Shown piece by piece: positions 1,418 to 41,570 of a DNA stretch of 64,000 bases (its first letter is position 1; each line of letters starts with the position of its first letter). Made by a program: the position numbers and the translations under genes. Under the pieces are notes generated by a model. It did no database searches. It saw only the letters and a program-made list of their open reading frames with translations, and was not told the DNA's origin. This DNA comes from Dysgonomonas sp. PF1-14 (GTDB lineage: Bacteria; Bacteroidota; Bacteroidia; Bacteroidales; Dysgonomonadaceae). Location of the stretch: positions 248,001 through 312,000 of the forward strand of contig NZ_JARXWN010000002.1 of the NCBI RefSeq assembly GCF_029892965.1. The letters run 5' to 3'.

Positions 1418-3391
1418 TTACGCTTTATAGTTTCTTTGTTGTCTTACCACAAACTCGTAGTCAAGAGGCTCTTTTATCAGTTCAGGGGCTTCGTTGTCTC
1501 CAGTATACTTCCAGCATCCGACATATGAGTAATGCTCATCATCGCGCATAGCCTCACCTTCCGGAGTCTGATACTCTTCACGGAAGTGTCCACCACACGA
1601 CTCGTTACGGTTTAGTCCGTCATAAGCCATCAATAAACCTATCTCTATAAAGTCTGATAAACGGAGTGCTTTTTCCAATTCGGTATTCAGATCCGTAGCC
1701 TCTCCCGGAATACGAACGTTTGTCCAGAATTCTTTTTTCACAGCCTTGATTTCTTCAATGGCTTTCTCCAAAGATTCCTTTGTACGTGCCATACCCACAA
1801 AGTCCCACATGATAATACCAAGTTGCTTATGAATAGAGTCTACCGAACGGTTACCCTTAATATTCATCAGTTTGGCAACTTTTTCTTTTAGTTCATTTTC
1901 AGTTTGAGCAAACTCAGGAAGATCGGTACTGAAACGCGGTACAGAAATCTGGTCAGCCAGATAATTCTGTATAGTGTAAGGCAACACGAAATATCCGTCA
2001 GCAAGCCCCTGCATCAGAGCAGATGCGCCAAGGCGGTTAGCTCCATGATCTGAGAAGTTAGCTTCACCAAGAGCAAACAGTCCTTTGATAGAAGTCATCA
2101 GCTCATAGTCTACCCAGATACCACCCATTGTATAGTGGATAGCAGGATAGATCATCATCGGAGTTTCATACGGATTGTCATCCACAATCTTATCGTACAT
2201 CTGGAACAAGTTACCGTATTTAGCTTCTACCACATCACGTCCGAGACGTTTGATAGCATCGCTGAAATCAAGATAAACAGCTAGGCCTGTAGAACCTACA
2301 CCATAGCCTGCATCGCATCTTTCTTTAGCTGCACGCGAAGCAACATCACGAGGAACAAGGTTACCGAATGCCGGATAACGTCTTTCCAGATAGTAATCTC
2401 TGTCTTCTTCTTTTATTTGAGTCGGTTTCAGCTTTCCGGCACGGATAGCTTCCGAATCTTCTATCTTTTTAGGTACCCAGATACGTCCGTCGTTACGAAG
2501 TGACTCCGACATCAGAGTCAGTTTCGATTGGAACTCGCCATGTACAGGAATACATGTAGGGTGAATCTGAGCAAAACAAGGATTCGCAAAATATGCGCCT
2601 TTCTTATAAGCCTGAATTGCGGCCGAACCGTTCGATCCCATTGCATTGGTAGAAAGGAAGAAGGCATTTCCATATCCACCTGTAGCAATAACTACAGCAT
2701 GAGCTGCAAAACGCTCAAGGTGGCCTGTTACAAGGTTACGGGCAATAATACCACGCGCACGTTCTTCGCCGTTATCGTCTTTTACAAGAACGACATCAAG
2801 CATTTCGTAGCGTGTATAAAGCTTCACACTCTTTTTCTGCACCTGACGGCTAAGTGCTGAATAAGCTCCGAGCAGCAATTGCTGTCCTGTCTGCCCTTTA
2901 GCATAGAATGTACGCGACACCTGCGCACCACCGAACGAGCGGTTATCGAGCAAGCCTCCGTATTCGCGAGCAAAGGGTACTCCCTGAGCCACACACTGGT
3001 CGATGATACTATTCGCCACTTCAGCCAGACGATATACGTTAGCTTCACGTGCGCGGTAGTCACCACCTTTGATTGTATCGTAGAAAAGACGATAGACAGA
3101 GTCACCGTCGTTCTGGTAATTCTTTGCTGCATTTATACCGCCCTGTGCTGCAATAGAGTGCGCGCGACGGGGAGAATCCTGAATACAGAAGTTTAGGACA
3201 TTGAACCCCATCTCACCCAGAGATGCAGCCGCCGATGCTCCTGCAAGGCCCGTACCTACCACAATAATGTCGAGGCGACGCTTATTGGCAGGGTTCACCA
3301 GCTTCTGGTGAGCCTTATAGTTGGTCCATTTTTCCGCCAATGGCCCCTCAGGTATTTTTGAATCTTTTTTTGGATCTAGTATAGTACTCAT
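1418..3391 (-). CDS. sdhA: Succinate dehydrogenase/fumarate reductase flavoprotein subunit
   Basis: This is the catalytic subunit that interconverts succinate and fumarate with covalently bound FAD. The N-terminus carries [19 protein letters not shown] (FAD Rossmann motif) and [15 protein letters not shown], whose histidine is the usual 8-alpha-FAD attachment site. Substrate-site segments [15 protein letters not shown] and [16 protein letters not shown] follow. I start at the ATG at 3391 ([16 protein letters not shown], 657 residues); an upstream ATG at 3418 would add nine residues of poor character. The sdhC stop lies about 50 bp upstream of this start, so the two are probably co-transcribed. 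Length and sequence fit the Bacteroidetes/epsilonproteobacterial B-type enzyme. Confidence 0.96.
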
Positions 3392-3439
3392 AATCTGTTT
3401 TTCTTTAATCTTTAACAAAAATAATCTGTGTCTGCTTCC

Positions 3440-4141
3440 TTATGCTCCAAGACAGAAATAGTGCCTTGCATAGAAGTAGATGGTTACAAAAGCAAATGCC
3501 AGACAAATAACAGTAGCAACTACCTGTCCAATCACTTTCCAGCGATTCATCCATATTGTGTTATTCCATCCGATAGTTTGGATAGCACTCCAGAAACCGT
3601 GAGATAAGTGGAACCACAGTGCCACATACCAAACCAGATAGGCTATAACAACCCATGTCTGACTGAAATAATACTTAATGAAAGCTGCTCCATCTTGTGG
3701 AGAAACCACAGCACCGCCTAACGCAACTTCGTGATGTCCCATCAGCTCCACAAACATCATCTTATACCAAAACTGGCTAAAGTGAAGGAACATGAATCCG
3801 ATAACGATAACCCCCAATACAAACATGTTCTGGGAAGCCCATTCTACGTTTTTCGGGCGAACATTCACTGCATAGCTGTCATTACCACGAGCTTTGCGGT
3901 TTTGCAGTGTCAGTATCAGTGCGTAAATAAAATGGATAGCGACCAATGCTCCCAAAGCGATAGTACCCGCTACAGCATACCAGTTAGCTCCCAACAGGGA
4001 ACAGATAGTATTGTAAGCGTCCTCCGAAAACACAGCCGTTACATTCATTGCCGCGTGAAACAGCAAAAACAAGATAAGAGCGATACCCGTAACGCTCATT
4101 ATCAGCTTCTTACCAATAGAAGACTTTAGTAACCAACTCAT
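3440..4141 (-). CDS. sdhC: Succinate dehydrogenase/fumarate reductase cytochrome b subunit
   Basis: A 233-residue integral membrane protein with about five hydrophobic segments and scattered histidines (LFHAAMN, AIHFIYAL, LHFSQFWY, LWFHLSHGFW) suited to bind two hemes. This is the B-type single-subunit anchor found in Bacteroidetes and Wolinella-like enzymes, which passes electrons between menaquinone and SdhB. It is the first gene of sdhC-sdhA-sdhB. A well-formed Bacteroidetes promoter lies about 105 bp upstream at 4246-4276. Confidence 0.93.
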   Translation of the reverse strand: MSWLLKSSIGKKLIMSVTGIALILFLLFHAAMNVTAVFSEDAYNTICSLLGANWYAVAGTIALGALVAIHFIYALILTLQNRKARGNDSYAVNVRPKNVEWASQNMFVLGVIVIGFMFLHFSQFWYKMMFVELMGHHEVALGGAVVSPQDGAAFIKYYFSQTWVVIAYLVWYVALWFHLSHGFWSAIQTIGWNNTIWMNRWKVIGQVVATVICLAFAFVTIYFYARHYFCLGA

Positions 4142-4245
4142 AAATTAAAATTGTTTTTAGTTATATTGAATAGTTAATTTCCAGTTGATAAATCTGATCA
4201 TTTATAGAAAAAGAACATGTTCAATCATTTTTTTCTATACTCATG

Positions 4246-4276
4246 CAAAAATAGATTAAATAAAGGGATTTTCAAA
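4246..4276 (-). promoter_or_regulatory. Promoter of sdhCAB
   Basis: On the minus strand a TTTG (4276-4273) and TATTTTTG (4253-4246) are separated by 19 bp, an exact match to the Bacteroidetes primary sigma pattern TTTG-N19-TAnnTTTG. The implied leader before the sdhC start is roughly 100 nt. Confidence 0.65.
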
Positions 4277-4470
4277 GGAAATAGAATGCGTTTTTGATTA
4301 AAAATCAAAATGATTTGTTAACCTGTGAACATATTTTATGTCCTTTATTTACTCTTTTATCCGATTATTGTAAAAAACCTTAAATATAAGACAACTGAGT
4401 CACTTTTTGCTCTCGCTTCCGCTATTGCAACAGCAAATTGTTAAAAAGAAAACTTCCCTGATATTTGCTA

Positions 4471-4900
4471 AAAGGTAACAACCAACGGTCACAGGAGCGA
4501 AGTCTATGTAAAAGTGACACTTTTTCAAATAATTTTTCTTTGCGTTTTCGCGTCTTTGCGTGAAATAATTTTAACGTGAGTTCGAAATAATAGCATCTAA
4601 ATATCAGCTAGTTATACATTTTCTTTGTGAGCCTTGTGTAAAACCTTGTGCTCTTTGTGGTTAAATCTTATTTCTTTTACCACAAAGGACACAAAGAAAA
4701 ACCACAAAGGGCACGAAGTTTACATCATATATTTTGGAAAACAATTGATTACATACTATTTTTATATCGAACTCACGTTAATTTTAACTAAAACCTCACA
4801 AAAATTACACTTTCCTTTATTTCTTCAAAGATCACTAACCCTTGTTAACTGTCGAGTGATCACTGTTAACTGAATATGCCTTAAAGATAATTCCAAGCAA
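4471..4900 (+). repeat. Dispersed intergenic repeat, copy 1 (interrupted by a MITE)
   Basis: The sequence opens with AAAGGTAACAACCAACGGTC and ACAGGAGCGAAG, continues through TTTGCGTGAAATAATTTTA, and ends with TGATCACTGTTAACTGAATA. The same order occurs in reverse complement at 41329-41570, so this is a repeat unit of about 230-250 bp. A 205-bp insertion at 4574-4778 splits this copy. Related copies or fragments lie at 26884-27090, 54744-54776 and 61779-61799. There is no believable gene inside; a 79-codon open frame at 4634-4873 merely crosses the repeats. Confidence 0.75.
4574..4778. mobile_element. MITE-like element with 12-bp TIRs and 8-bp target duplication
   Basis: The element begins ACGTGAGTTCGA (4574-4585) and ends with its exact reverse complement TCGAACTCACGT (4767-4778); with one mismatch the inverted repeat extends to 17 bp. 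It is flanked on both sides by TAATTTTA (4566-4573 and 4779-4786), an 8-bp target-site duplication. The homologous repeat at 41406-41413 holds the same octamer once (TAAAATTA on the plus strand), the unoccupied site. The interior has further inverted repeats built from CTTTGTGGT/ACCACAAAG and no transposase, so it must depend on a transposase elsewhere. Eight-bp duplications occur in several IS families, so I do not assign one. Confidence 0.8.
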
Positions 4901-4913
4901 AACTCACAAAATA

Positions 4914-4949
4914 AATAAGCCGGATATATTTTGATATATCCGGCTTATT
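4914..4949 (-). terminator. Terminator of the surface-glycan operon
   Basis: AATAAGCCGGATATA and TATATCCGGCTTATT form a perfect 15-bp stem around a 6-nt loop. It lies about 20 bp after the stop of the last glycosyltransferase on the minus strand and is followed there by TATTTTGT. It probably ends the long minus-strand cluster that starts at 12701. Confidence 0.75.
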
Positions 4950-4969
4950 ATGTTTATAATAGGTTCTGT

Positions 4970-6034
4970 TTATTGCATATATTTTTGAGCTAATTCGTAA
5001 ACCTGTTTTGCCGACTTCTCCCACGAATATTTCTTAATCTGCTCCAGACCTTTTACACGCAAATCTTGCTGCAATGATTCATCGGCAAGCAACTGGTTTA
5101 TTTTCATTGCCATATCACCCACATCATACGGGTCAATGTACAACGCCGCACCCTCACTCACTTCGCGCAGGGCGGGAATATCGGAATTTATAGCCGGACA
5201 ACCGTAGGTCATCGATTCGAGCGGTGGCAAGCCGAAACCTTCATACAATGACGGGTAAACGGACAGAATAGCATTCTGATACATTTTCTGCAACGCATCG
5301 TCTGAGATATAGCCCGGAAGGAATACATTCTCTCCTATCAGCTTTTGCAGATCGGGGGTATTGAATGCCTTAAATGACATACCGATAATGTACAACTTTA
5401 CCGATTTATCCTCTATCTTGTTAAACGCTGCTACAAGCCGCTCAAAGTTCTTTCGGGGATCCATTGACGAAACGGCTATTACGTATCGGTCTCCGGACGG
5501 ATTGTGCCGATAATTCAATATTTCTTCATCAGATGGTTTATTGTGGAAAGGCACATTGCTATGCACTACATGTATCTTAGCCGCATCCAACCCTAGTGTA
5601 TCTACTATCTCACGCTTGGAAAACTCGCTTACGGTAAGTATTGCATGTGCCTTACGCCCGATACGTGGCATCATATAATGATAGAAGCGATAATAATTCT
5701 TCGAAAACCATTGTGGATAACGCTCATGCGAAACATCGTGAATAGTCATTATCTGATTATTGTAGTTCAATGGTCCACATCCGGTAAAGCTTATGAGTAA
5801 GGGACTCCCTATTTTTTTCAGATAGCGGGGCAATGATACCTGTTCCCACAAATGGGTATTGAGTGAACCGCACTTGACCGTTTTAAAGTCAAATGTATAA
5901 TCGGGATGTATTTCCTGCGGTACAGCCACATGAAAGTCTACACCCATTTCGTGCAACTTATTGCATATTTCGAAAGCATAGCGGTGCACTCCCGTAGCCT
6001 TCTGTGTCAGATACCTTCCGTTTACAACAAACAT
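4970..6034 (-). CDS. Glycosyltransferase family 4 (GT-B)
   Basis: This 354-residue protein has the GT4 layout: an N-terminal acceptor domain with MTIHDVSHERYP and LTVSEFSKREIV segments, then a donor domain with VSSMDPRKNFERLV and the E-x7-E motif in YEGFGLPPLESMTYGCP that binds the nucleotide sugar. Such enzymes are retaining transferases, often mannosyl- or rhamnosyltransferases, acting on polysaccharide intermediates at the cytoplasmic face of the membrane. It is the last gene of the glycan cluster, downstream of a short AT-rich repeat region. Donor and acceptor sugars cannot be read from sequence. Confidence 0.88.
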   Translation of the reverse strand: MFVVNGRYLTQKATGVHRYAFEICNKLHEMGVDFHVAVPQEIHPDYTFDFKTVKCGSLNTHLWEQVSLPRYLKKIGSPLLISFTGCGPLNYNNQIMTIHDVSHERYPQWFSKNYYRFYHYMMPRIGRKAHAILTVSEFSKREIVDTLGLDAAKIHVVHSNVPFHNKPSDEEILNYRHNPSGDRYVIAVSSMDPRKNFERLVAAFNKIEDKSVKLYIIGMSFKAFNTPDLQKLIGENVFLPGYISDDALQKMYQNAILSVYPSLYEGFGLPPLESMTYGCPAINSDIPALREVSEGAALYIDPYDVGDMAMKINQLLADESLQQDLRVKGLEQIKKYSWEKSAKQVYELAQKYMQ

Positions 6035-41328: not shown

Positions 41329-41570
41329 GTTAACAGTGATCAGTCAACAGAGGCAAGTGATCTTTGAGGAAATAGAGAAAAATGTAATTTTCGTGAGGGT
41401 TTAGTTAAAATTATTTCACGCAAAGACGCGAAGGCACAAAGAAAAACTATTTGAAAAAGCGTCACCTTTACACATACACTTCGCTCCTGTAATTGATAAT
41501 TGTCAAGTTTTTGATCACTGTTGACTGACAGAAGTGTTGCCTTTGTTACCTTTTTTCATTAACTAAATTG
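41329..41570 (-). repeat. Dispersed intergenic repeat, copy 3 (unoccupied MITE site)
   Basis: Reverse complement of copy 1: TTCAGTTAACAGTGATCAGT at the left, TTTAGTTAAAATTATTTCAC in the middle, then ACACTTCGCTCCTG and GTTACCTTTTTTC at the right. TAAAATTA at 41406-41413 is the single copy of the octamer that is duplicated around the MITE in copy 1. The rest of 41133-41856 is AT-rich and holds only promoters for rfbB and dapF. Confidence 0.75.

Follow-up and report, generated by a model that had tools for sequence, protein, structure and literature searches.

How did a 205-bp element without a transposase come to lie inside another repeat in Dysgonomonas sp. PF1-14, and which enzyme is likely to have moved it there? 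The window, i.e. the whole stretch of 64,000 nucleotides analysed here, corresponds to G000:C2:248001-312000 of a 4.58-Mb draft genome in 49 contigs. The element, a MITE, occupies positions 4574-4778 of the forward strand. Its neighbours are a gene without a Pfam match (3440-4141) on one side and a glycosyltransferase gene (4970-6034) on the other; beyond the former, on the same strand, lies a gene (1418-3418) whose product is a flavoprotein of the fumarate reductase/succinate dehydrogenase kind. The perfect 12-bp inverted ends described in an earlier note on this DNA are present: the left end, ACGTGAGTTCGA (4574-4585, forward strand), has its exact reverse complement in the right end (4767-4778, reverse strand). 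The octamer TAATTTTA flanks the MITE on both sides as a target duplication, at 4566-4573 and 4779-4786 (both forward strand), again in agreement with that note. Its statement that no transposase lies inside also holds, as no open reading frame of at least 100 aa in the list for the window overlaps 4574-4778. The interior is a palindrome of CTTTGTG and CACAAAG units between 4619 and 4721, with arms at 4619-4643/4676-4700 and 4641-4662/4700-4721, and the folding z-score of the palindromic MITE is -6.11. An Rfam scan of 4201-5160 gave nothing at the gathering score.

The claim that the MITE had inserted into another repeat was borne out, since the host repeat aligns on both sides of it with a homologous repeat at 41329-41570 (reverse strand). 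The left part (4491-4575, forward strand) is 90% identical to that repeat, in an alignment that runs on through the duplication and 2 bases into the MITE, and the right part (4779-4870, forward strand) is 80% identical. In the repeat at 41329-41570 the MITE is lacking and the octamer TAATTTTA occurs once, as previously noted, at 41406-41413 (reverse strand; the forward strand reads TAAAATTA), marking the empty target. Filled and unfilled forms of the host repeat therefore both lie within the window, 36 kb apart. The empty site lies in a paralogue of the host repeat rather than in a second allele of the filled locus. None of five other members of the host repeat that were examined carries a MITE end; the exact octamer is found once in one of them (L050), and variants of it in the other four. 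The host repeat itself is an apparent mosaic, in which modules such as GTTAACAGTGATCAGTCAACAG, CGCAAAGACGCGAAG and a TTTTAGTTAAAAT stretch come in varying combinations (41329-41570; L048, L049, L050, L051, L061, L063). Three of the 14 full-length MITE copies of the genome (L001, L003 and L013) lie in or beside host-repeat modules, a possible association seen post hoc.

A search of the genome recovered further copies of the MITE. There are 14 full-length ones, including that in the window, together with three fragments and one copy truncated at the start of a contig. Pairwise identity among the full-length copies is 0.946-1.000 (median 0.980), and 10 of them have two exact 12-bp ends. With one mismatch allowed, the end motif occurs 37 times in the genome, against 12 for a reversed control pattern. 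Four loci (L008, L009, L010 and L011) are identical over 205 bp, and a fifth (L012) is one base off this sequence. At 12 of the 14 copies the flanks form exact target duplications of 6-8 bp, compared with none of 182 cross-paired flanks at 5 bp or more. In particular, the duplication is 8 bp in one copy, 7 bp in seven, 6 bp in four and at most 2 bp in two (L009 and L013); L009 is also one of the identical four. Thus, the 8-bp duplication reported earlier stands for the window copy, where it is the longest of the set, and does not describe the family, whose duplications are 6-8 bp and mostly 7 bp. No frame of 120 aa or more runs across the insertion junction at any of the 14 copies, so the copies look intergenic. 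One copy, L014 (C3:328835-329061), is 227 bp long, with 22 additional bases that duplicate an adjacent unit containing CACAAAG within the MITE. Because four copies are identical and exact duplications persist at 12 of 14, a recent spread of the MITE in this lineage is supported by the sequences.

Some match to the MITE is present in 16 of 61 genomes (its own and 60 relatives), many of these matches covering only the interior CTTTGTG stretch. Relatives that carry ends were found in three genomes of the same genus: the one in G024 is 82% identical over the full length and has both ends, the one in G016 likewise has both, and for G012 a left end was seen. Palindromes of CTTTGTG/CACAAAG at L107, L088 and L098 in G027, which belongs to a different genus of the same family, resemble the MITE interior, and no IS982-type end occurs in the roughly 110 bases inspected on each side of them. 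The interior motif is therefore not peculiar to this MITE. Since the interior is a palindrome that also occurs without these ends, and only some 12-17 bp per end of the MITE look IS-like, the MITE did not obviously arise by simple internal deletion from a known IS. The glycosyltransferase gene beside the MITE was matched in 22 of 24 relatives, 19 of which gave loci. At these 19 loci neither an end at one mismatch or fewer nor a blastn match to the MITE was found (0/19); the opposite-side gene was recovered in 13 of them, three at only 51-52% identity, the other six may not be syntenic, and L281 is cut short. Intergenic DNA between the species is too diverged to reveal an empty allele.

Candidates for a helper transposase were sought within the same genome, which holds two genes with a PF13612 match, a broken one on C3 and a second one on C27. 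The broken IS982 gene, within C3:34424-35263, is split into two frames of 133 and 118 aa that score 85.3 and 67.6 bits against the NCBIfam model transpos_IS982, both fragments falling below its whole-protein cut-off of 130 bits. It ends in TCGAACTCACGT, the same 12 bp as the MITE end, followed by TGTATTA; no left end was recognised. It is the only same-ended transposase gene found in the assembly, and no intact IS982 with the MITE ends was found in this 49-contig draft, drafts being able to miss an IS. The C27 gene was set aside as a helper, with no MITE end within two mismatches in the locus and no end pair from an inverted-repeat search. At this locus (L079, C27:15925-16368) the IS982-type frame, of 410 aa, continues in frame into a tail matching part of Bacteroid_MobC. 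This match and the presence of TonB-receptor genes would point to a source in the Bacteroidota. Five loci of the same genus (L113-L117) have ends ACCCGTAGTGC or ACCCGTGGTGC, and the C27 gene would appear to belong with this type.

Further, the second piece of the C3 gene was matched in 22 of 101 genomes of the same bacterial family, and the family loci fetched include nine distinct two-ended elements of IS length, whose left end starts with ACGTGAG or ACCTGAG. An intact element of 1031 bp (L131, from G112) has both 12-bp ends exact, a 7-bp duplication (TATATTA) and a transposase scoring 260.3 bits for transpos_IS982; its protein shares 58% identity with one C3 piece (119 aa) and 49% with the other (89 aa). 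Similarly, L144 (G074) has both ends exact, no exact duplication and a score of 278.7 bits, while L128, with the one-base end variant ACGTGAGTTCGG, has a 6-bp duplication and scores 267.9 bits. The ends ACGTGAGTTCGG recur in L126 and L146, which have no exact duplication, and in L145 and L151, which have 5-bp duplications. Duplications of 5 bp also flank L125 (ends ACCTGAGTTCGA) and L108 (ends ACCTGAGTTCCG). Exact duplications among the nine elements are accordingly 5 bp in four, 6 bp in one and 7 bp in one, with none in three; the 5-bp value lies outside the 6-8 bp of the MITE and counts against an IS982 helper. The full IS with the same ends for which the earlier note proposed a search thus exists in the same family, intact and with a 7-bp rather than an 8-bp duplication, whereas in the genome of the MITE only the broken gene was found. 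Other copies and IS with those ends, the absence of which that note had named as telling against its reading, both exist (14 full copies and same-ended IS982 elements).

Taken together, the MITE has very probably been moved in trans by a DDE transposase of the IS982 family. A helper from this family is most likely because a broken same-ended IS982 is present in the genome and an intact same-ended IS982, with a 7-bp duplication, is present in the same bacterial family. The MITE ends begin with AC and equal the ends of IS982 elements, and its 6-8 bp duplications fall within the range in print for IS982, in which direct repeats, when present, measure 2-10 bp (PMC7335449). The IS982 transposase would recognise the 12-bp ends and join the MITE to TA-rich DNA between genes, whereupon gap repair would create the target duplication. 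The helper of this lineage may since have been broken, and the MITE would then stay stranded until the arrival of a further IS982 with such ends.

The last of these steps bears on whether the MITE still moves. That it is by now a stranded relic, an IS982-type MITE no longer moving in this species, is a rider on the IS982 reading and not exclusive of it, and we regard it as a real possibility while leaning against it. In its favour, no intact same-ended transposase was found in the assembly, and the diverged end-bearing relatives in G012, G016 and G024 suggest that the family is older than the species. Against it stand the signs of recent spread, namely the four identical copies and the 12 exact duplications, and the chance that a 49-contig draft misses an IS. 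With no intact same-ended helper in that draft, the data support recent and not present movement. Thus, the earlier description of the transposon as active in this lineage stands for its recent past and falls short for today, the only same-ended gene found in the assembly being broken.

Movement by an IS5-type transposase instead of an IS982 one is very unlikely. This possibility is raised by ISPg3, which is labelled IS5 and has printed ends ACGTCAGTTCGA, one base away, and with which two MITEs are paired in PMC4596501; IS982 proteins also match IS5 models weakly. However, the transposases of L131, L144 and L128 score at least twice the transpos_IS982 cut-off and remain below the cut-off for each IS5 model listed, and the broken gene on C3, which shares the end, is IS982 as well. 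It is scarcely credible that the MITE is a structural hairpin repeat spread by recombination rather than transposition: its strong palindrome and the apparently intergenic setting of its copies would suit such a repeat, but the exact duplications, absent from cross-paired flanks, and the unduplicated octamer in the unfilled host repeat speak against it.

The IS982 reading can also be viewed against the distribution of the ends in other organisms. A search of genome contigs with the pattern end-N165..195-end gave at least 117 stretches in other genomes. The 80 record titles among the matches listed comprise 53 rows of Bacteroidota, 26 of other groups (Clostridia and kin, Cyanobacteria, Desulfobacterota, Acidobacteriota, Balneolaceae, Omnitrophota and Endozoicomonas) and one titled only 'bacterium', where phyla are read from titles, several rows share one genome, many are metagenome bins and single assignments may be wrong. 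Viral contigs gave no match to the end-pair pattern, and the MITE was matched by nothing in plasmid or phage collections at E <= 1e-5. Exact duplications of 6 bp or more flank 73 of the 117 listed elements with both flanks and are absent in 44, against 2.3% of cross-paired flanks; among the matches listed, these duplications start with TA in 62 of the 73 and end with TA in 65. The 44 elements without one, like the two such copies in the genome of the window, count against the IS982 reading. Exact ends and length are imposed by the pattern search itself, whereas duplications and interiors are not. With ends trimmed, the listed elements and the window MITE form 57 clusters by alignments of at least 80 bp, and the window MITE interior has no match to the other listed elements at E <= 1e-5.

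Of the 56 genomes picked from the 80 titles among the matches listed, 50 with same-ended elements of 189-219 bp were searched for IS982. PF13612 has a match in 26 of these 50 genomes and exceeds the cut-off in 25; the corresponding values in 148 genomes of the window's phylum (its own included) are 16 and 12, a difference in favour of an IS982 helper, the two groups being unmatched in taxonomy and completeness. PF13612 is without a match in the remaining 24 genomes, and distant members of its family are among the 25, both of which count against such a helper. Among 30 PF13612 loci from the 50 genomes, exact ends flank six on both sides at IS length, another seven carry two ends within two mismatches, and no pair is present in 17. 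Six of the 50 genomes contain an IS982 element whose 12-bp ends are both exact, again in favour of IS982. The 13 two-ended elements, six with exact duplications of 6-8 bp, lie in only 11 of the 50 genomes, which counts against it. Sub-terminal matching between MITE and resident IS982 was weak in eight genomes, 1449 of 40320 permutations being as good or better; the ten genomes were hand-picked, and Amazonocrinis and Anabaena, where the IS ends are ACCTGAGTTCGG, were dropped before permutation.

These distributions allow a tentative, and on present evidence rather unlikely, extension. The ACGTGAGTTCGA end with a TA...TA target may be honoured across phyla, given that unrelated interiors in many bacteria carry it, so that any IS982 of this end-type that arrives, even from a different phylum, could set a stranded MITE moving again; the window MITE would be such a passenger, assembled around a CTTTGTG palindrome that had earlier been an independent repeat. 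In a literature search covering few subscription papers, no publication connecting this end between phyla was found. Since the same paired ends recur in at least 117 stretches, the 12-bp signature could be of use in annotating such elements, and it could make the restart of stranded MITEs by transposases from other lineages testable. For the window itself, the analysis names a likely helper family (IS982) for a repeat that would otherwise escape annotation, and both the filled and the empty state can be read there.

The MITE is a new example of a well-known kind, as both an IS982-derived MITE and a MITE with this end are already in print. The former is MITECca01 of Cardinium (PMC9769881), described there as about 240 bp long, with IS982-like inverted repeats and no transposase, and lying mostly in intergenic DNA or in other mobile elements. 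The likeness is one of description, and MITECca01 differs in having 169 copies and an intact parental ISCca4 in the genome, whereas the window MITE counts 14 full copies in a genome whose one same-ended gene found is broken. The latter is MITE239 of Porphyromonas gingivalis, whose left end is printed as ACGTGAGTTCGATATAAAGGAA (PMC4596501); its first 18 bases equal the right end of the window MITE read inward. MITE239 is likewise small, multi-copy and without a transposase, and one copy is reported to lie inside another MITE (BrickBuilt_18). Unlike the window MITE, it has a right end printed as imperfect, the comparison resting on printed ends. The 12-bp end or its complement was found in the table rows of PMC4596501 for MITE239 and MITE700, and in a human lncRNA paper.

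Among complete elements, the IS982 review PMC7335449 gives AC as the start of 57 of 69 IS982 members, direct repeats of 8 bp for IS195, 7 bp for IS1187 and 7 bp for ISPrsp2, and an inverted repeat of 12/12 bp for IS195, itself called an IS982-family element in PMC13305171. These three elements, of about 1 kb, resemble the MITE in their direct repeats, in the 12/12-bp inverted repeat of IS195 and in the AC start of most IS982 members; they differ in carrying a transposase. The review contains no word beginning 'mite'. In the P. gingivalis study, MITE ends are tied to IS elements labelled IS5 (PMC4596501). For one of these, ISPg3, the end printed in Table 2 is a single base from the present IS982-type end, and the label may deserve a recheck. 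Lone left ends, ACGTGAGTTCGAAATAAGATAAT, also occur in the PF1-14 genome at L033 (C5:160747) and L043 (C16:70523) and lack a right-end partner within the locus; in L033 the closest candidate has two mismatches and lies 717 bp on. These single ends are perhaps remnants of IS982 elements.
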